Part shown: one piece after another, positions 4,543 through 38,108 of the stretch
Position numbering within the stretch: the stretch's first letter is position 1
How the letters are laid out: the number at the start of each line of letters is the position of its first letter
NCBI RefSeq assembly: GCF_000331735.1
Contig: NC_020126.1
Coordinates: 7,009,501-7,073,500, forward strand
Direction of reading: 5' to 3'
Length of the DNA stretch: 64,000 nt
Origin: Myxococcus stipitatus DSM 14675
GTDB lineage: Bacteria > Myxococcota > Myxococcia > Myxococcales > Myxococcaceae
Notes under the pieces: model-generated
What the model saw: only the letters and a program-made list of their open reading frames with translations
Told to the model about the DNA's origin: nothing
Databases searched by the model: none
Program-made: the position numbers and the translations under genes

Positions 4543-5916
4543 ATGTTCAAGAAGACAGCCGTCATTGCTGTCACCTGTGGCGCATTGCTGGCCGGGTGCG
4601 GTGGCGATCCTCGGGCGGAGCAGGCGGTGCAGGACGAGATTGTTTCCAATCTGCTCCAGGCGGGGTTTCCCGCCCACGACATCCTGGTCTCCGACGGTGA
4701 CGTGTACGTGGGCCGTGACGCCCACGTCACCCTCGAGGCCTCGCGCGAGATGCTCCAGGCGCCCCTCGCGAGCGAGGAGCAGTACCGCACGACGAACCAG
4801 GTCGGCACGGGTGTGACGAAGATCTGCGTCAATCCCACCGCGGACTTCAACACCTACAACATGCTGAGCCAGGGCCTGGACCTGGCCATCGCCAACTACA
4901 ATGAGCGAGGGCTGCGGCTCACCTTCGCGCGCGGACCGAGCACCGGCTGTACGGCCAACATCACCGCGCAGACGATGGGTGGCACAGGCGGCTCCGCGGG
5001 CTTCCCGTCGGGCGGCCTGCCCTATGGAATCATCAACATCGGCACGGGTCTGAACAGCTACAGCGCTGACGTGAACGAGCACGTCATCACCCACGAACTG
5101 GGCCATGCAATCGGCTTCCGCCACTCGGACTATTACAACCGAAGCATCAGCTGCAACGTCGGCGGTGACGAGGGAGACGCGGGCGTGGGCGCCATCCACA
5201 TCCCCGGGACTCCCACGACGGCCGTCGTCGGCGGCTCGGTCATGAACTCCTGCTTCCGGGACTCCGAAACCGGAGAGTGGACCGGCTCGGATATCACCGC
5301 GCTGAATGCGCTCTATGGCACCAGCGGGGTCGCGAGCTGCGCGACCTACAACGTCCCGTCCTACCGAGGGCAGAACGGCACGAGGATTCAGTGCACCTGC
5401 GCCGCCGCGACCGGCGGCACGGTGTGGGGGACGGACGTCTACACGGATGACTCCAGCGTCTGCGACGCCTCGATTCACGCGGGAGCGATTCCCGCCAGCG
5501 GTGGAACGGTGACGCTCACCATCCAGCCTGGACAGAGCAGCTACACGGGCAGCACGCGCAATGGCATCACCACGAACGCCTACGGCGCCTGGGGCGGGAG
5601 CTTCACCGTCAGCGGCCAGACGCCCGTCGCGGCCTGCTCGACCTACAACTTCACCTCCTACCGAGGACAGAACGGAACGCAGATTCGATGCAGCTGCCCC
5701 GCCGTGAGCGGAGGCACGGTGTGGGGGACGGACCTCTACACGGATGACTCGAGCGCCTGCGCGGCCGGAGTGCACGCGGGTGCGATTCCCGCCAGCGGCG
5801 GGACCCTGACGGTCACCATCCGCCCGGGGCAGAGCAGCTACACGGGCACCACGCGCAATGGCATCACCACCCTCTCCTACGGTGCCTGGAGCGGGAGCTT
5901 CTCCATCAGTCCGTAA
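4543..5916 (+). CDS. Secreted M57-type metallopeptidase with two LCCL domains
   Basis: The ATG at 4543 (457 residues) is chosen because it begins a lipoprotein signal (MFKKTAVIAVTCGALLAGCG, lipobox Cys at 20); an in-frame ATG at 4429 would add an Arg-rich leader that masks it. The protease domain carries HELGHAIGFRH at 184-194, the HExxHxxGxxH zinc signature of metzincins, and resembles the M57 dual-action HEIGH peptidases of myxobacteria. From about 265 and 363 run two related repeats of about 95 residues with the LCCL core YTDDSSxCxxxxHAGAI. LCCL domains are thought to bind lipid or polysaccharide and are better known from eukaryotes. A hairpin terminator follows. Predicted to be a cell-surface or outer-membrane-anchored protease. 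Confidence 0.85.
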   Translation: MFKKTAVIAVTCGALLAGCGGDPRAEQAVQDEIVSNLLQAGFPAHDILVSDGDVYVGRDAHVTLEASREMLQAPLASEEQYRTTNQVGTGVTKICVNPTADFNTYNMLSQGLDLAIANYNERGLRLTFARGPSTGCTANITAQTMGGTGGSAGFPSGGLPYGIINIGTGLNSYSADVNEHVITHELGHAIGFRHSDYYNRSISCNVGGDEGDAGVGAIHIPGTPTTAVVGGSVMNSCFRDSETGEWTGSDITALNALYGTSGVASCATYNVPSYRGQNGTRIQCTCAAATGGTVWGTDVYTDDSSVCDASIHAGAIPASGGTVTLTIQPGQSSYTGSTRNGITTNAYGAWGGSFTVSGQTPVAACSTYNFTSYRGQNGTQIRCSCPAVSGGTVWGTDLYTDDSSACAAGVHAGAIPASGGTLTVTIRPGQSSYTGTTRNGITTLSYGAWSGSFSISP

Positions 5917-5937
5917 CCATTCCAGACACGCGAATGA

Positions 5938-5973
5938 CAAGGCCCTCTGGGAGCTATCTCTCAGGGGGCCTTG
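5938..5973 (+). terminator. Hairpin terminator after the M57/LCCL gene
   Basis: A 16-bp stem (5938-5953 with 5958-5973, two G-T wobbles) closes a 4-nt loop, 21 bp after the stop codon. The downstream sequence is only mildly T-rich (CCTTGTC). Confidence 0.65.
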
Positions 5974-31910: not shown

Positions 31911-33563
31911 GTGAGTGTGAGGACTCTCCTTCCCATCCTGCTGGCGGCGCTGACGGCCTGCGCGACTTCTTCGCCCCTGGGGACGGAGAAGGGGGGACTC
32001 GTGCCCCTTCGGCTCGACGAGGAGGCGCTGTCCAGCGCGTACACGCCCCGGCGCATGGCGCTGCTGGTGGGCATCTCCGAGTTCGACGACCCTCACTGGC
32101 GCAGCCTGCGCTACCCGGCCAAGGACGCCACGGACCTGGCGGCGGCGATGCTGGACCCGGCGCGCGGACGCTTCGACCAGGTGCGTGTCCTCACGCGTCC
32201 CGAAGAGACGACCCGCGCGGCCATCCTCCAGGCGCTGAGACAGCTGCGCAAGGAGGCCCACCGGCCGGATGACGTGGTGGTCGTCTACTTCTCCGCGCAT
32301 GGCACCCTGGCTCGCGATGCCACGGGGGAGCTGCGCCGCTTCCTGGTGACTCGAGATGCGTCCTACCGGGCCGTGGCCCAGACGGCGCTCGCCATGGACG
32401 CGCTCAAGGCGGAGTTCGACTCGCTCCCCAGCCGGCGGCGGCTGCTGGTGCTCGCGTCGTGTCACAGCGGCAACGGCAAGTCGCTGCTGCCCAAGGAGCT
32501 GGAGACGGAGCTGAACGGCATCAAGTCGGGCTTCTACGCCCGGCCGCTGGAGGAGTCGTCGCGCGCGTCCATGGTGTTCGCCGCCTGTGATTGGGGCGAG
32601 ACGGCACGCGAGGACGAGGGCCTGCGCAACGACATCTACACGCACTTCCTCATCGAGGGACTGGGCGGTGGCGCGGACCGCAACGCGGACGGCGCCGTCA
32701 CCGCGACGGAGGCCCACGACTACGCGCGCCGCCGCACCTTCGCCTTCACCGAAGGCCGGCAGCGCCCCTCGGCGGAAATCATGGAAGTGGGCGCGGACCC
32801 CGTGGTGCTGTCGGGCAGCATCGCACGCACGGGCCGGCCAGAGCTGTTCTCCTACAACCCTCGGCTGGATGGCTTCACGCTCAAGGTGGATGGAGAGCCT
32901 CGCGCGGAGCTGCCCGGCGGCGCGGCGGTGGTGCCCGGCAAGCGCACGGTGGAGCTGACCAAGGGCGGCGCGGTGCTGGTGCGCCGCGAGGTGGAGGTGG
33001 ACCTGGGCGAGCGACTCCCCCTGGAGCAGCTGCTGGCCGAGGCCTTCCCCCGGCGCTCGTTGTCCCTGCTGGGCGGCATGTTCACCTTCGTCGACGCGCG
33101 CAGCCGCTCGGAGCTGCTGCCCATGGCCCCCGAGCTCGCCCTCTCCTTGCGGCTGGAGGACCGGCCGCTGCGCGACTTCGGGCTGATGTTCGATGTGAGT
33201 TTCAGTACGGGCAGGCGTGCCCTCATGCTCCAACCCGAGGAGGAGGTGCCTTTCCGCTACACCACCTTCTCCGCGGGGGTGGCCCTGCCCTACCTGTGGC
33301 GCTGGGAGCGGCTGTCGCTATTCGCCGGCCCGCGTGTGGCCGCCCTGTACCTGGGGCGGTCCTTTGATGTGGAGACGACCGCCCGTGGCCAGAGCTTCTT
33401 CACGGTCAGCCCCGGAGTCGTCGGTGGCGTGGTGCTGCGCATGGGCGAGCGGCTGGAGTTGATGACGCAGGCGCAGCTCATGCTCACGTACGTGGTCGTG
33501 GATGGGGAAGGACAGGCCGTGGGTTTCACCGGCGCCTGGGCCGGTGTGGGGTACCGGTTCTGA
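31911..33563 (+). CDS. Caspase-like (C14) lipoprotein with a C-terminal barrel-like domain
   Basis: The protein has 550 residues from the GTG at 31911, 5 bp after the previous stop. The signal ends in a lipobox (LTAC, Cys17). A caspase/metacaspase domain spans about 47-300: MALLVGISEFDD, then the catalytic His130 in YFSAHG and Cys184 in LASCHSG. A PEGA-like sandwich domain follows at about 310-360. The last 190 residues have alternating strands ending in WAGVGYRF, like an outer-membrane barrel. A caspase domain exported as a lipoprotein is unusual. It lies third in the ECF operon and may be its output. Substrate unknown. Confidence 0.87.
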   Translation: MSVRTLLPILLAALTACATSSPLGTEKGGLVPLRLDEEALSSAYTPRRMALLVGISEFDDPHWRSLRYPAKDATDLAAAMLDPARGRFDQVRVLTRPEETTRAAILQALRQLRKEAHRPDDVVVVYFSAHGTLARDATGELRRFLVTRDASYRAVAQTALAMDALKAEFDSLPSRRRLLVLASCHSGNGKSLLPKELETELNGIKSGFYARPLEESSRASMVFAACDWGETAREDEGLRNDIYTHFLIEGLGGGADRNADGAVTATEAHDYARRRTFAFTEGRQRPSAEIMEVGADPVVLSGSIARTGRPELFSYNPRLDGFTLKVDGEPRAELPGGAAVVPGKRTVELTKGGAVLVRREVEVDLGERLPLEQLLAEAFPRRSLSLLGGMFTFVDARSRSELLPMAPELALSLRLEDRPLRDFGLMFDVSFSTGRRALMLQPEEEVPFRYTTFSAGVALPYLWRWERLSLFAGPRVAALYLGRSFDVETTARGQSFFTVSPGVVGGVVLRMGERLELMTQAQLMLTYVVVDGEGQAVGFTGAWAGVGYRF

Positions 33564-34669
33564 TGCACTCGAGACTTCACATCACGTTGGGTACCGCCCT
33601 CCTCCTCTGCACCGGGGCCTGCGGCAACCTGGAGAACGCCCCCTTGCGCGTGGGCACCATCCAGGGACAGCTCTCGGAGTTCGACCCCGCGGTGGCCATG
33701 GTCGCCCTGGTGGCGGACCCCGAGGTGCGCACCACGGTGGACTCCGCCGGTCGCTTCAAGCTGGAGGACGTGCCCAGCGGCGCCGCGGAGCTCTTCATCG
33801 TCGCCACCTCGGAGAAGGCCGCGCGCGTGGCGGTGAAGGTCTCCGGCGGCAAGGCCGTGGACGTGGCGCGCGTGGAGGCGCGGAGCGCGGGCTTCTTCGA
33901 GATGCGCGTGAAGGCGACGCACGGCGAGCGTGTCGCGGGTGTGCAGGTGTCCGTGCAGGACACGCCCTTCGGCCGGTTGATCCTGGATGGCGCGGGCCGC
34001 CTGCGCGTGGGGCCGCTCCCGGATGGGTGCTACGCGCTGACGCTCGCCGGCTCGGGCTTCCCCACCCTGACGACCGAGGCGTGTGTCGGGTCCGGCGAGA
34101 AGAAGGAGCTCAAGCTCGAGCTGGTGCCCAACGCGGGAATCGTCAACCGCTGCGGCCTGACGGGCTGCGCGGACGGCCTGGTGTGTGCCCCCGGTGGCCG
34201 CTGCGTGGAGTGCGTGCAGGATGCGCAGTGCGGCGAAGGGATGATGTGCAAGGGCTTCCGCTGCGGAGCGGCGGGCCCGAGCTGCAGCGCCTGTGGCACC
34301 AACGGGAGCTGCGACAAGGGCGCCACCTGCCAGCCCTTCTCCGATGGGAGCCAGGTCTGCGTGAAGGAATGCACGGAGACGGTGAACGAGGACGCGCAGG
34401 ACTTCGCCGCGAACCGCTGCGAGGCGGGCTTCACCTGCCAGCGCGGGAGCTGCCTGCCGGACCCGTCGCGCTTCGTGGGCTGTGGCGCGCTGGAGCGACT
34501 GGGTGACGAGTGCACGGACGACGCGCGCTGCCAGAAGCTGGGCCTCGCCAAGGGCGTCTGCGTGGAGGGCCGCTGCACCGTGCCCTGCACCGAGGACCTG
34601 GAGTGCCCGGACGTGTCCCACTGCCAGGACACCCGCTTCGGGCGGGTGTGCTCCGTGCTCCCCCGCTAA
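33563..34669 (+). CDS. Cys-rich lipoprotein with a regulatory-like beta domain
   Basis: The 368-residue protein overlaps the previous stop by one base (TGATG), which implies coupled translation. The signal ends at a lipobox (CTGAC, Cys20). Residues of about 30-180 are two beta-sandwich repeats like carboxypeptidase-regulatory domains (VDSAGRFKLEDVPSG, LDGAGRLRVGPLPDG). The C-terminal half has about 25 Cys in short repeats (C-x-DGLVCAPGGRCVEC, C-x-CGTNGSC), typical of disulfide-knotted surface proteins. It is the last gene of the sigma/anti-sigma/caspase operon. It may be a partner or substrate of the caspase-like protein, which is inference. Confidence 0.8.
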   Translation: MHSRLHITLGTALLLCTGACGNLENAPLRVGTIQGQLSEFDPAVAMVALVADPEVRTTVDSAGRFKLEDVPSGAAELFIVATSEKAARVAVKVSGGKAVDVARVEARSAGFFEMRVKATHGERVAGVQVSVQDTPFGRLILDGAGRLRVGPLPDGCYALTLAGSGFPTLTTEACVGSGEKKELKLELVPNAGIVNRCGLTGCADGLVCAPGGRCVECVQDAQCGEGMMCKGFRCGAAGPSCSACGTNGSCDKGATCQPFSDGSQVCVKECTETVNEDAQDFAANRCEAGFTCQRGSCLPDPSRFVGCGALERLGDECTDDARCQKLGLAKGVCVEGRCTVPCTEDLECPDVSHCQDTRFGRVCSVLPR

Positions 34670-35391
34670 CCGCGAGGCGCGAGGACCAGGCCGTCCCGAG
34701 ACAGGCGCGTCACCGCGTCCAGGATGTCGGCTTCGGGCATTCCCGTGGCCGCCGAGACCTCCGCGGCGGACAGCCCCTCCACCGCCATCTTCAGCACGAG
34801 CAGCGCGTGGGGCGTGGCCTCCAGGTAGTACGAGGCCAGGCTCTCCGGATGCCGCCACACGAGGGCCAGCTCTTCACCGGGCTCGGGCGGCGCACCCGCG
34901 CCTCGGGCTCGCACGTAGGCGCAGAGCCGGAAGGACTGCTCCAGCACCACCAGCGTCGGGTTCGGCGTCAGCGCCGCCACCTGCTCGGGCAACTCCACCT
35001 GTGAGGCGAACACCGCGAAGTCCGTCCACTCGAAGCGCGCCAGCGCGGGGATGAACGGCGCGAGCCCTCGGGTGGGAAGGGTGTCCGCGAGGAACGAGGC
35101 AAAGCCCTCACCCAGGCGGTTCACCTCGTGATGCCGCGCGGGCCGGGTGCGCGTGTAGTCCTCCACCAACAGCCTCCACGCGTCCGGACCCACGGCGCTC
35201 CGCACCAGCGGGAAGAGCTTCTCGAGCGCGCCTCGCACATGGCCTCGCACGAAGTCGCCGTAGAGCGACACGCGAGAGGATGGCGCCGCCCAGCCCGGAT
35301 GCTCCGCGTACAACTGCTCCAGCGACGCGGGCGCGGGGTTCGCGAGGTATGCGCCCATGCTGTCGAAGAAGTGCTCGAGCGCGGGCTTCAT
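34666..35391 (-). CDS. HvfC/BufC-type partner protein of the RiPP cluster
   Basis: The ATG at 35391 (241 residues) overlaps the stop of the MNIO gene (ATGA), so the two are translationally coupled. The N-terminal 100 residues match the DUF2063/HvfC-BufC domain (LYGDFVRGHVRGALEKLFPL). The C-terminus is winged-helix-like (SAAEVSAATGMPEADILDAV). In bufferin and HvfABC systems this protein works with the MNIO enzyme, probably as the precursor-binding subunit, in the cytoplasm. Convergent with the Cys-rich lipoprotein gene with a 4-bp overlap. Confidence 0.82.
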   Translation of the reverse strand: MKPALEHFFDSMGAYLANPAPASLEQLYAEHPGWAAPSSRVSLYGDFVRGHVRGALEKLFPLVRSAVGPDAWRLLVEDYTRTRPARHHEVNRLGEGFASFLADTLPTRGLAPFIPALARFEWTDFAVFASQVELPEQVAALTPNPTLVVLEQSFRLCAYVRARGAGAPPEPGEELALVWRHPESLASYYLEATPHALLVLKMAVEGLSAAEVSAATGMPEADILDAVTRLSRDGLVLAPRG

Positions 35392-36242
35392 CGCCCCTCC
35401 CCTTCGCGCAGCACCTGACGCGCGAGGTCCGCCTCGTCCAGCACCGCCGCCATCGACGGGATGTCCTGGTCCCACTCGATGAGCGTGGACACCGGGCCGG
35501 TGCGCTCCAGCACATATCGATACAGCGACCACACGTCGTCGCAGACGCGGTCGCCGTGCGTGTCGATGATGACGTCGGGGTACGTCGTGTGGCCCGCGAG
35601 GTGGATTTGCACCACGCGCTCCAATGGCAGCGCGTCCACGAAGGCGCGCGCGTCGTAGCCATGGTTGCGCGCGTTGACGTAGACATTGTTCACGTCGAGC
35701 AGCAGGCCGCAGTCGGCCTCCTCCACCACGTGCCGCAGGAAGTCCGCTTCGGACAACGTCCCCCCGGGCATGTTCGCGTAGTAGCTCGGGTTCTCCAGCA
35801 GGAAGGGGCGCCCCACGCGGGCCATCACCTCGCGCACGCGCGGGACGACGTGCTCCACCACCGCCTCGCTGAACGGCAGCGGCAGCAGGTCATGGAGATA
35901 CACGCCCCCCAGTCGCGAGTAGCAGAGATGGTCCGAGAAGAACGGCGCATCCACCTGCTTCACCAGCGCGGCCAGGCCCGTGACGTAGTCCAGGTCGAGC
36001 GCATCCGGCCCGCCGATATCCAAGCCCACGCCGTGCGGCAACACGGGCCAGCGCTCGCGGCACGCCTCCAGCGCGCGGTGAGAGCGGCCTCCCAGCGAGA
36101 GGAAGTTCTCCGGGATGATCTCCACCCAGTCGAGCGCGCGCCCGGTCCGGGGCAGCTCCTCGTAGAAGCTCCTGCGCAAGCCGATGCCCACGCCCAGCGA
36201 CTTCAGTCCGTGCCTTCGCGCGTACGTCACCACCACGGCCAT
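35388..36242 (-). CDS. MNIO-family (DUF692) iron oxidative enzyme
   Basis: The 284-residue protein has the TIM-barrel motifs of DUF692, now the multinuclear non-haem iron oxidative enzymes: GVGIGLR at the start, WVEIIPENF, FFSDHLCYS, LLENPSYY, LLLDVNNVYVNARNHG, IHLAGH and IDTHGDRV. The conserved His, Asp, Glu and Asn residues of these motifs bind two or three iron ions. The family modifies Cys residues in ribosomal peptides, forming thiooxazole (bufferins) or oxazolone-thioamide (HvfA) groups. Here it follows a Cys-containing small precursor gene by 95 bp and overlaps the partner gene by 4 bp. The exact modification is inferred. Confidence 0.9.
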   Translation of the reverse strand: MAVVVTYARRHGLKSLGVGIGLRRSFYEELPRTGRALDWVEIIPENFLSLGGRSHRALEACRERWPVLPHGVGLDIGGPDALDLDYVTGLAALVKQVDAPFFSDHLCYSRLGGVYLHDLLPLPFSEAVVEHVVPRVREVMARVGRPFLLENPSYYANMPGGTLSEADFLRHVVEEADCGLLLDVNNVYVNARNHGYDARAFVDALPLERVVQIHLAGHTTYPDVIIDTHGDRVCDDVWSLYRYVLERTGPVSTLIEWDQDIPSMAAVLDEADLARQVLREGEGR

Positions 36243-36337
36243 GCACCTCCAGGGAGCCTCATGAACCGGGCGGCGGGAGGTCCTCTTCCCACCGCCCAGG
36301 AGGCCGGCGACGTCACCGGCCCTGGATACGGCCCTGC

Positions 36338-36592
36338 CTACTTCTTCTGACCGTTGCAGCCACCCGCGCCGCAGGAGTGCTCAGCGCCCTTCTCCGGCGT
36401 GGCCGCGGGGGCGGCCGCATCCGTACCCTCGGCGGGCTTGTTCTCCTCGGTCTTCGCGGCGCCGCAGCTGCCCTCCGCGCCCTTCTCCGCGGCGGCCGGC
36501 TGGCCCTCCGCCGCCTTCGTGGAGGCACAGCCAGTGGCGAGGGAGGCCAGGGACAGGGTGCCGACAATCGCCGCAAGAGCCTTCGCGTTCAT
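36338..36592 (-). CDS. Bufferin/HvfA-like RiPP precursor with lipobox
   Basis: The ATG at 36592 gives 84 residues and has AAGGAAG upstream. The leader is a signal peptide with a lipoprotein lipobox (LATGCAS, Cys22). The core is Ala/Glu/Lys-rich and low in complexity, with EGSCG at 40-44, EHSCG at 71-75 and a final GGC at 77-79. EGxCG repeats are the sites modified by MNIO enzymes in HvfA proteins. Together with the downstream MNIO and partner genes this makes a complete small cluster. The modified peptide would be exported and, if the lipobox is used, lipid-anchored; related products bind copper. Confidence 0.82.
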   Translation of the reverse strand: MNAKALAAIVGTLSLASLATGCASTKAAEGQPAAAEKGAEGSCGAAKTEENKPAEGTDAAAPAATPEKGAEHSCGAGGCNGQKK

Positions 36593-36671: not shown

Positions 36672-38108
36672 TCATCTACGGATGCCGGGTGACTCGCGGA
36701 TGTATCCCCGACTTTCCATCGCCTCGCGCAACACACTGTCGCGAGCAGGGACGAATTGAATGCCTTCTGATTCCGCCGTCACACCCAGCGCTTGTAGCAG
36801 ACCTTCCTGCTCCACAAAAGCCGCGCGCTTGAGGTGACGCGCGAGCAATGCATCGAAGAGTGGCTTTCCCGCGATGGCATCCACCGCCACGCCAAACGCT
36901 CCCAACGTCGAGCTCGGTCCTCGCTCCGCGAGCAACTCCAACACATCCTCCAGGTGACGACGGTTTCCAGTAGCACGGCGTATTTCCACATCGAGATGCA
37001 ATGCGAGCAGCGCGCCCGTCCAGTACGTGCCGGGCGAGAAACCGTTTCCGGAGACAACCTCTTCCATGGTGCGGGCTCCCGCCACGCGACGTCCGCGCGC
37101 GAAGCCATCCACCAACTCCTCCCATCCCCGCTCCGCGCTCAGCCGTCCGGAGCGCACGCGCGCAACCTCCGTGTAGTAGGTGGCCAGCCCCTCCGACAGC
37201 CACGGCACACGCGGCAGGAAGGCGGGATGGGCCAGGTGGAGCATCTCGTGGAGCGCCACCCAATCGAGCGCGAAGGACGCGGCGCTCGCGTCCTGCCCCA
37301 CGAGCACGGAGATGCTGGGAGGCGAGCTCCACAGCACCATGCCGAAGAGGCTGGGCCCTTCGTGTCCGGGCACGGGAATGACTCGCACGGTGATACGCGG
37401 ATACGGGAAAGTACGGCGGACCGTGAGCACTTCGTCCGCGGCCTGCTTCAGCCAGCCACAGACCTGACTGTCCTCCAGCTGACGAAAGTGGCCCAGCACC
37501 GCCACGTCCAGCACCGCGTCCGGCAACACCACCTGACAGCGGCGTCCCCCGAAGCCATGGAAGCCCGAGTCCACCAGGTCCTCCGCGCGAAGCCGATACA
37601 GGCCCGTCTCATCCGGTTGCCAGGGCAGCAGCGCGTCCGCGCCTTCCACGGCCAACTCCACGCGCAGGTCCGGCGGCGTCTGGTGCGGACGGATGAGGTA
37701 CGCGCGCCCCGCGACATGCCACGCATCCGCCTCCCCCATTCCCGTGAACAAGCGCTGCCCGCGTGAGCGCGTCGGAGCCTCCAGGTCATAGCGATAGCGC
37801 AGGAAGCGGATGTCCGCGGGCAGGAGCACGCGGCCCTCCTCCGTCACCGGCAGCTCGAAGTGCTCACCGTCCTCGCGGTAGGCGCCCACCGACGCCACGC
37901 CCCCCGGCGAGGTGAAGCGGAACACGCGCGGCGTGCCCCGCACCAACACCACCTCCACGTCGAGCGCCCGCGTGGGCGCTCGGACGAACGTGACGGTGTA
38001 GCGGAGCGTGGCCGGGTCCTTCGAGAGGCGAGGGCCCGGCACGCTCACGCAGGACAGCCCCACGCAGAGAACGAGAGCCAGCAGCGAACACCTGTGCACG
38101 CGCGACAT
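36672..38108 (-). CDS. Gluzincin-type metallopeptidase lipoprotein
   Basis: The ATG at 38108 (478 residues) starts a signal with lipobox (LCVGLSC, Cys20 region); the upstream frame adds noncoding residues. The first 200 residues are beta-rich, as in the N-terminal domain of M1/M61 peptidases. The catalytic motif HEMLH lies near 286-290 with the third ligand Glu in WLSEGLATYYTE about 25 residues later, the gluzincin pattern. No GxMEN exopeptidase motif is seen, so M61-like or an uncharacterised relative is more likely than M1. Cell-envelope protease; substrate unknown. Confidence 0.82.
   Translation of the reverse strand: MSRVHRCSLLALVLCVGLSCVSVPGPRLSKDPATLRYTVTFVRAPTRALDVEVVLVRGTPRVFRFTSPGGVASVGAYREDGEHFELPVTEEGRVLLPADIRFLRYRYDLEAPTRSRGQRLFTGMGEADAWHVAGRAYLIRPHQTPPDLRVELAVEGADALLPWQPDETGLYRLRAEDLVDSGFHGFGGRRCQVVLPDAVLDVAVLGHFRQLEDSQVCGWLKQAADEVLTVRRTFPYPRITVRVIPVPGHEGPSLFGMVLWSSPPSISVLVGQDASAASFALDWVALHEMLHLAHPAFLPRVPWLSEGLATYYTEVARVRSGRLSAERGWEELVDGFARGRRVAGARTMEEVVSGNGFSPGTYWTGALLALHLDVEIRRATGNRRHLEDVLELLAERGPSSTLGAFGVAVDAIAGKPLFDALLARHLKRAAFVEQEGLLQALGVTAESEGIQFVPARDSVLREAMESRGYIRESPGIRR

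Follow-up and report, generated by a model that had tools for sequence, protein, structure and literature searches.

A conserved lipobox precursor and a linked M61-like peptidase gene in a myxobacterial MNIO peptide cluster

What product should be expected of a cluster for a ribosomally synthesized and post-translationally modified peptide (RiPP) whose precursor begins like a lipoprotein, and where does such a cluster end? A locus that raises both questions lies in a stretch of 64,000 nucleotides from Myxococcus stipitatus DSM 14675 (contig NC_020126.1, positions 7,009,501 to 7,073,500; hereafter the window), on a myxobacterial chromosome of 10.35 Mb. The original prediction placed there a bufferin/HvfA-like cluster of three genes on one strand, encoding an 84-residue precursor with EGSCG, EHSCG and GGC motifs, a multinuclear non-haem iron-dependent oxidative enzyme (MNIO, DUF692) and an HvfC/BufC partner, and translation of the open reading frames (ORFs) confirmed this arrangement. 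From comparison with relatives, we propose that the cluster probably makes a lipid-anchored, copper-binding RiPP of the 5-thiooxazole (captophorin/oxazolin) type. The boundary first drawn omits a linked gene on the same strand (positions 36672-38108), which encodes an M61-like peptidase.

The gene for the BufA/HvfA-like precursor (positions 36338-36592, minus strand) was assigned from its ORF translation and from conservation among orthologues, and the translation has the layout MNAKALAAIVGTLSLASLATGC-ASTK...EKGAEGSCGAAK...EKGAEHSCGAGGCNGQKK. Residues 1-21 form a type II signal peptide, and its lipobox is LATGC (Leu18-Ala19-Thr20-Gly21-Cys22, codons at 36527-36541, minus strand), with Cys22 as the predicted lipidation site and Ala at +2. 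The remaining cysteines are Cys43 (EGSCG), Cys74 (EHSCG) and Cys79 (GGCN). For comparison, loci were counted as orthologous where the MNIO is at least 74% identical to that of the window, which gave 69 loci from 63 myxobacterial genomes, and lipoboxes were assigned by eye and by pattern (68 by pattern, and L093 by inspection; what looks like a lipoprotein upstream of the L102 MNIO is an unrelated type of protein and was left out of the count). In all 69 loci a homologous precursor with a lipobox (LATGC, LAAGC or LASGC) lies directly upstream of the orthologous MNIO, and the precursor ORF is therefore not a chance reading frame; this also excludes the outcome named in the original prediction as refuting it, that relatives might carry no homologous precursor beside the MNIO gene. 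The lipobox cysteine is residue 22 in each of the 68 orthologues with a uniform start. Leu18, Ala19, Gly21 and Cys22 are invariant in the 68 aligned orthologues, residue 20 being Thr, Ala or Ser, and every invariant codon shows synonymous variation. At Cys22 (36527-36529 in the window) the codon is TGT in 59 orthologues and TGC in 9, despite the GC-rich genomes. Judged from this pattern of sequence conservation, LATGC is a real lipobox, and the proposed lipid anchor is well supported by the comparison.

The anchor itself is not new. Lipid anchoring had been put forward as a variant unrecognized among described members, and we rejected that claim on two published accounts: some 16% of the Buf2 precursors have a predicted lipoprotein signal (PMC12452194), and signals for signal peptidase II (SPII) are predicted in subsets of bufferins and oxazolins (PMC12636315). 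The second of these accounts also describes NedA from Neisseria dentiae, an EGKCG precursor with an SPII signal, which was triacylated when produced in Escherichia coli and for which mass spectrometry gave a loss of 12 Da over three motifs, or 4 Da per motif (PMC12636315).

The MNIO gene (35388-36242, minus strand) encodes a protein of 284 amino acids, and its assignment to DUF692 is borne out by a match to Pfam PF05114 at 342 bits and by a score of 318.9 bits against the NCBIfam BufB model NF050167, above the cut-off of 310. The iron-ligand motifs common to 3bww, TglH and MbnB are kept (H70, H105, E150, D183, N185/186, H214, D227, H229, E256 and D258). In FonB, the substrate is contacted by Arg15, Arg16, Asp249, which is the catalytic base, and Phe250 (PMC13097082); that paper contradicts itself once over the conservation of the second Arg in Cys-Lys enzymes, and we followed its preceding lines. 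The corresponding residues in the window are Arg23-Arg24 and Asp258-Gln259, such that both arginines and the aspartate are retained and Phe is replaced by Gln. At the aligned positions, Arg-Arg and Asp-Gln are each found in 68 of the 69 MNIOs of the lipobox clade, whereas all 20 Buf2-type MNIOs from the same phylum have Arg followed by a residue other than Arg, and mostly Asp-Asp or Asp-Glu; the HvfB-like 3bww has Arg-Arg and Asp-Phe. The window enzyme thus resembles the EGKCG type at the contact with the motif glutamate and differs at the contact with the residue preceding Cys, a difference in line with the replacement of Lys by Ser in the motifs. The Asp-Gln signature sets apart a subgroup of MNIOs and makes their substrate preference open to prediction and testing.

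The partner gene (34666-35391, minus strand; 241 amino acids) begins with an ATG in a 4-base overlap (35388-35391) with the MNIO stop. Its product matches Pfam DUF2063 (54 bits, cut-off 27.2), and the AlphaFold2 model (predicted local distance difference test score, pLDDT, 91.7) finds only two structures at E<0.001 in a Foldseek search, 3dee/NGO1945 (E 5.6e-7) and TglI 8hci (E 1.4e-6). Family match, predicted fold and overlap together sustain the HvfC/BufC assignment, and on the model the protein combines DUF2063 with a winged helix of the RiPP recognition element (RRE) kind, as in PME type 1 of the published nomenclature (PMC12452194). The locus has the captophorin-type layout, in which an MNIO and a DUF2063-RRE partner directly follow a precursor with a Sec signal.

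Assignment of the precursor to a family is less direct. Orthologues carry two to six core cysteines, in the context E-G-S-C-G. The residue that follows is Gly, Ser, Asn or Ala in 250 of 257 instances (Gly 184, Ser 56), and Glu stands at -3 in 161 of the 257; a small residue after Cys and Glu at -3 fit the tolerance measured for FonBC (PMC13097082). The orthologues L078, L080 and L081 have EGKCGEGKCG repeats and score 19.6-19.9 bits against the HvfA-type domain model NF050137 (cut-off 19.5), with 11-16 bits against the full-length HvfA model NF050188 (cut-off 95). One repeat present in the closest sibling is missing from the window lineage (KGAEGSCGAAK in G014, KPAEGTDAA in the window). Its precursor has no DUF2282 match, and its three core cysteines in E-x-S-C-G context compare with the four conserved cysteines of Buf1; nor does it match the 6- or 12-Cys Buf2 model Cu_RiPP_BufA2 (NF050166), on which a genuine Buf2-type relative from this family (L108, G101) reaches 78.5 bits (cut-off 60). 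The description as a bufferin/HvfA-like MNIO cluster is well supported by the comparison as to cluster type, but needs correcting for the precursor, which stands nearer to HvfA/oxazolin (Buf_EGKCG) than to the bufferins proper (DUF2282-containing Buf1 or 6-Cys Buf2), although the MNIO scores as BufB.

The lipobox clade forms one branch of the MNIO tree (99/95), and the named near relatives of the window enzyme are in Myxococcus, Corallococcus, Pyxidicoccus, Citreicoccus, Archangium and Hyalangium. The sister group has ordinary signals for signal peptidase I (SPI) and similar cores, such as GGEKSCGADGKSCGGK after AxA. Also within the clade is L142, at 65% identity and with two tandem lipobox precursors. 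The precursors of L213 and L146 carry lipoboxes on a separate MNIO branch, so that anchoring was gained or lost more than once, and we rejected the idea of a single late gain in one clade. The L142 genome is a metagenome assembly labelled Planctomycetota, in which the tandem precursors (5346-5938) have SSCSGDK repeats; the label may reflect a binning error or a transfer. Some genomes (G095, G107, G108, G119, G126 and G133) hold two lipobox clusters, and G095, G107 and G108 hold an SPI-type cluster in addition, which provides a natural comparison within one cell. The cluster is also present in Corallococcus, Archangium and further Myxococcus, among them M. xanthus, a tractable model in which one could study what a lipid-anchored thiooxazole peptide does in vivo.

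The gene that the original boundary left out (36672-38108, minus strand) is directly upstream of the precursor gene, its stop lying 79 bases before the precursor start. It encodes a candidate fourth component of 478 amino acids, an M61-like zinc metallopeptidase that is itself a predicted lipoprotein (...VGLSC). The match to Pfam PF05299 (M61) is 16.3 bits, below the gathering score of 22, and all 25 aligned homologues (A1) match this family weakly (best E 1.8e-6); the ligands of the HEMLH-x14-E motif (H287, E288, H291 and E306) are nevertheless invariant in the 25. A sequence search of the PDB returned nothing useful, and only the fold search was informative. With a predicted model at pLDDT 88.4, the first PDB match was 7xyo (E 2.7e-21, 22% identity), a Myxococcus fulvus protein of the M61 family, and other top matches were the M61 member 8j9c and the related 4fgm. 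The modelled protein is thus assigned an M61/M1 fold with zinc ligands. We take 7xyo to be MfuP, an M. fulvus M61 endopeptidase of solved structure whose gene belongs to a lanthipeptide cluster and whose substrate is the modified core peptide (PMC10885120).

Positions of peptidase and MNIO genes were compiled by hand, with one MNIO per genome. Among 145 genomes from the class, 70 have a homologue of the peptidase, and 62 of the 70 have it on one contig with an MNIO gene at a gap of 387-1618 bases, though most of the 62 are near relatives and hence not independent; the other eight have no MNIO match or have the MNIO on another contig. In the lipobox clade the peptidase precedes the precursor; four SPI-type clusters (L038, L040, L145 and L147) and one Buf2-type cluster (L222) have it after the partner gene. 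All 21 aligned peptidases from clusters with a lipobox precursor have a lipobox Cys themselves, several of these lipoboxes, including GLSC of the window, being non-canonical at -3; in the five clusters with SPI precursors none of the peptidases has one. This joint change of signal-peptide type may have been a single event. In G028 an unlinked peptidase with a lipobox (LAGC) is found on a 5-kb contig, and the only MNIO match of that genome is Buf2-type.

Many relatives (Corallococcus, Pyxidicoccus, Hyalangium and M. eversor) have a gene of the YceI family (PF04264, E 3e-24) between peptidase and precursor (L128 4917-5552; L049 5937-6572; L118 4941-5576; also L126 and L136). A YceI-like stretch is also seen in the distant lipobox cluster locus L213 and in two Buf2 clusters (L042 and L112), and the gene is absent from the window. 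We found no relevant literature that joins Myxococcus with DUF692, bufferin or MNIO-YceI.

The pathway that we propose for this cluster would begin in the cytoplasm, where the partner would bind the precursor through its RRE domain and present the core cysteines to the MNIO. The enzyme would then oxidize them in a four-electron reaction, most likely to 5-thiooxazoles as judged from HvfA, FonA and BufA, the product chemistry of the HvfA type having been assigned as 5-thiooxazole (PMC13419390, PMC13097082). After export by Sec, Cys22 would be diacylglycerated and signal peptidase II would cut before it, with Ala at +2 suggesting the outer membrane as destination. The tethered peptide would bind copper at the envelope, as its family suggests, and not as a free periplasmic or secreted peptide. 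The M61-fold lipoprotein probably acts on the same membrane face, where it might trim or release the modified core. Chemistry, localization, copper role and protease substrate are here what we infer from characterized relatives and, for the protease, from its linkage, the shared switch of signal peptide and its similarity to the RiPP-cutting MfuP.

Several lines of evidence converge on a lipid-anchored thiooxazole peptide: the families and folds of MNIO and partner, lipobox precursors at 69 of 69 loci, EGKCG orthologues above the NF050137 cut-off, the Arg-Arg pair (68 of 69 in the clade, none of 20 among Buf2-type enzymes, present in 3bww), the single-branch clade, and the lipidated EGKCG precedent (PMC12636315). 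A number of observations weigh against it. The MNIO scores as BufB and falls below the HvfB model (282 bits, cut-off 360), and the window precursor alone reaches no family model cut-off in NCBIfam or Pfam, with 7.3 bits against NF050137. It has only three core cysteines, of which Cys43 is isolated and Cys79 precedes Asn; FonBC needs two repeats and prefers Gly or Ala after Cys (PMC13097082), so not every cysteine need be modified and, by analogy, Cys43 and Cys79 may be modified poorly. The cluster contains no DoxX gene, the nearest in the genome being about 2 Mb away, and the idea that DoxX is the fourth gene was accordingly rejected; near the cluster, neither a copper regulator nor any copper gene was seen. 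Finally, one genus (G082, G095, G107 and G108) keeps the lipidated cluster without the peptidase, which shows that the peptidase is not obligatory.

Some of these points would also suit other explanations. That the lipobox is fortuitous, and that signal peptidase I frees a periplasmic peptide as in ordinary bufferins, is an idea that gains some colour from sister clusters within the family, whose SPI precursors have cores of the same type; we nonetheless consider it highly improbable, because the 69 loci differ in Leu-Ala-x-Gly-Cys only at x, although the codons vary, and because lipobox precursors recur on the second branch. A modified and lipidated precursor might instead serve a purpose other than copper binding, such as handling another metal, redox or sulphur stress, or decoration of the surface or vesicles in predation or development. 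The lack of visible copper genes would agree with this, as would Ser for Lys in most motifs and Gln for Phe at the selectivity site, from which it follows that the product differs from those of characterized members; functions beyond copper are, moreover, expected in the landscape paper (PMC12452194). Yet characterized thiooxazole RiPPs bind copper (PMC13097082) and lipid anchoring leaves the chelating group unchanged, and we regard a non-copper role as unlikely, though well short of negligible.

The peptidase poses a more evenly balanced problem, since it could be a neighbour through conserved gene order only and have no part in the RiPP pathway, an explanation that seems to us to have an equal chance of being right or wrong. 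In many Myxococcus the gene order runs on to tetR, thioesterase and fabF genes, and part of the linkage is therefore shared descent; the lipobox genus without a peptidase and the few genomes that carry it elsewhere point the same way. Against this, the peptidase stays by the cluster in Archangium and Hyalangium even though tetR, thioesterase and fabF are missing there, and it is found on the other side of SPI-type sister clusters, after the partner gene, at 28-31% identity. It also has a lipobox where the precursor is lipidated and none where the precursor is of the SPI type, and the nearest solved structure is the M. fulvus enzyme that cuts a modified RiPP core. The window protein, as modelled, is probably an anchored M61-like protease of the cluster. 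The fuller proposal, in which the M61-fold lipoprotein would cleave or set free a lipid-tethered copper peptide, modified by the MNIO, on the same face of the membrane, and in which both proteins change jointly between soluble (SPI) and lipid-anchored (SPII) forms, we offer tentatively and with some doubt. If true, it would make proteolysis by a membrane-anchored enzyme one step in the maturation of thiooxazole RiPPs. A protease gene linked to such a cluster, with a product predicted to be lipidated along with the precursor and soluble where the precursor has an SPI signal, makes a direct genetic test possible. Peptidases are not mentioned as cluster members in the landscape paper (PMC12452194), and the linked M61-like peptidase is the part of this locus that we did not find in the literature examined; a lipobox by itself is nothing new, and it is the protease link that merits testing.

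Convergent to the cluster (31911-34669, plus strand) are genes for two predicted lipoproteins, one with a caspase/CHAT domain and the other Cys-rich with a CarboxypepD_reg domain; many relatives have them in the same order, and the distance to the cluster varies. Elsewhere in the same genome, a second MNIO (L034 4628-7292; G000:C1, about 5.848-5.851 Mb) is beside a membrane-type protein with a CGGCGGGGD-like Cys/Gly/Ser tail that by eye resembles TIGR04222 substrates, and a short protein of 156 amino acids at that locus could be a type 2 partner. A third MNIO domain (L035 6701-8593; G000:C1, about 4.805 Mb) is contained within an ORF of 630 amino acids, after which comes a kinase-like gene.

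Among known systems, NedA/NedBC (PMC12636315) shares with the window a type II signal peptide, motifs of the E-G-x-C-G kind, and an MNIO with its partner. It differs in its EGKCG repeats, where the window has EGSCG, EHSCG and GGC, a BufB-scoring Asp-Gln MNIO, no DoxX and a linked M61-like peptidase. The captophorins HvfA/oxazolin and FonA/fontiphorin (PMC13097082, PMC13419390) have the same gene order A-B-C, an RRE partner, Glu and Gly on either side of Cys, the Arg-Arg pair of the MNIO and the 5-thiooxazole product expected here. No lipobox is described for them in these two papers, however, and they have Lys before Cys, which is mostly Ser in the window clade, and Phe where the window enzyme has Gln. 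Buf1 and Buf2 (PMC12452194) resemble the window in a BufB-scoring MNIO and a PME type 1 partner, and some Buf2 precursors are predicted lipoproteins, but the window precursor lacks DUF2282 and the 6-Cys Buf2 pattern, and in the tree its MNIO does not group with the Buf2-type MNIOs of other myxobacteria.

The two remaining comparisons concern the protease and the anchor. MfuP (PMC10885120; taken to be 7xyo) is likewise an M61 fold in a myxobacterial RiPP cluster and the nearest solved structure, but it acts on a class II lanthipeptide, whereas the window peptidase belongs to an MNIO cluster and is itself predicted to be a lipoprotein. DybA/chryseobasin (PMC12636315) is an MNIO-modified RiPP with an SPII signal and demonstrated lipidation, and differs from the window in its CPACGMG core, its ChrH-type MNIO and its chemistry.

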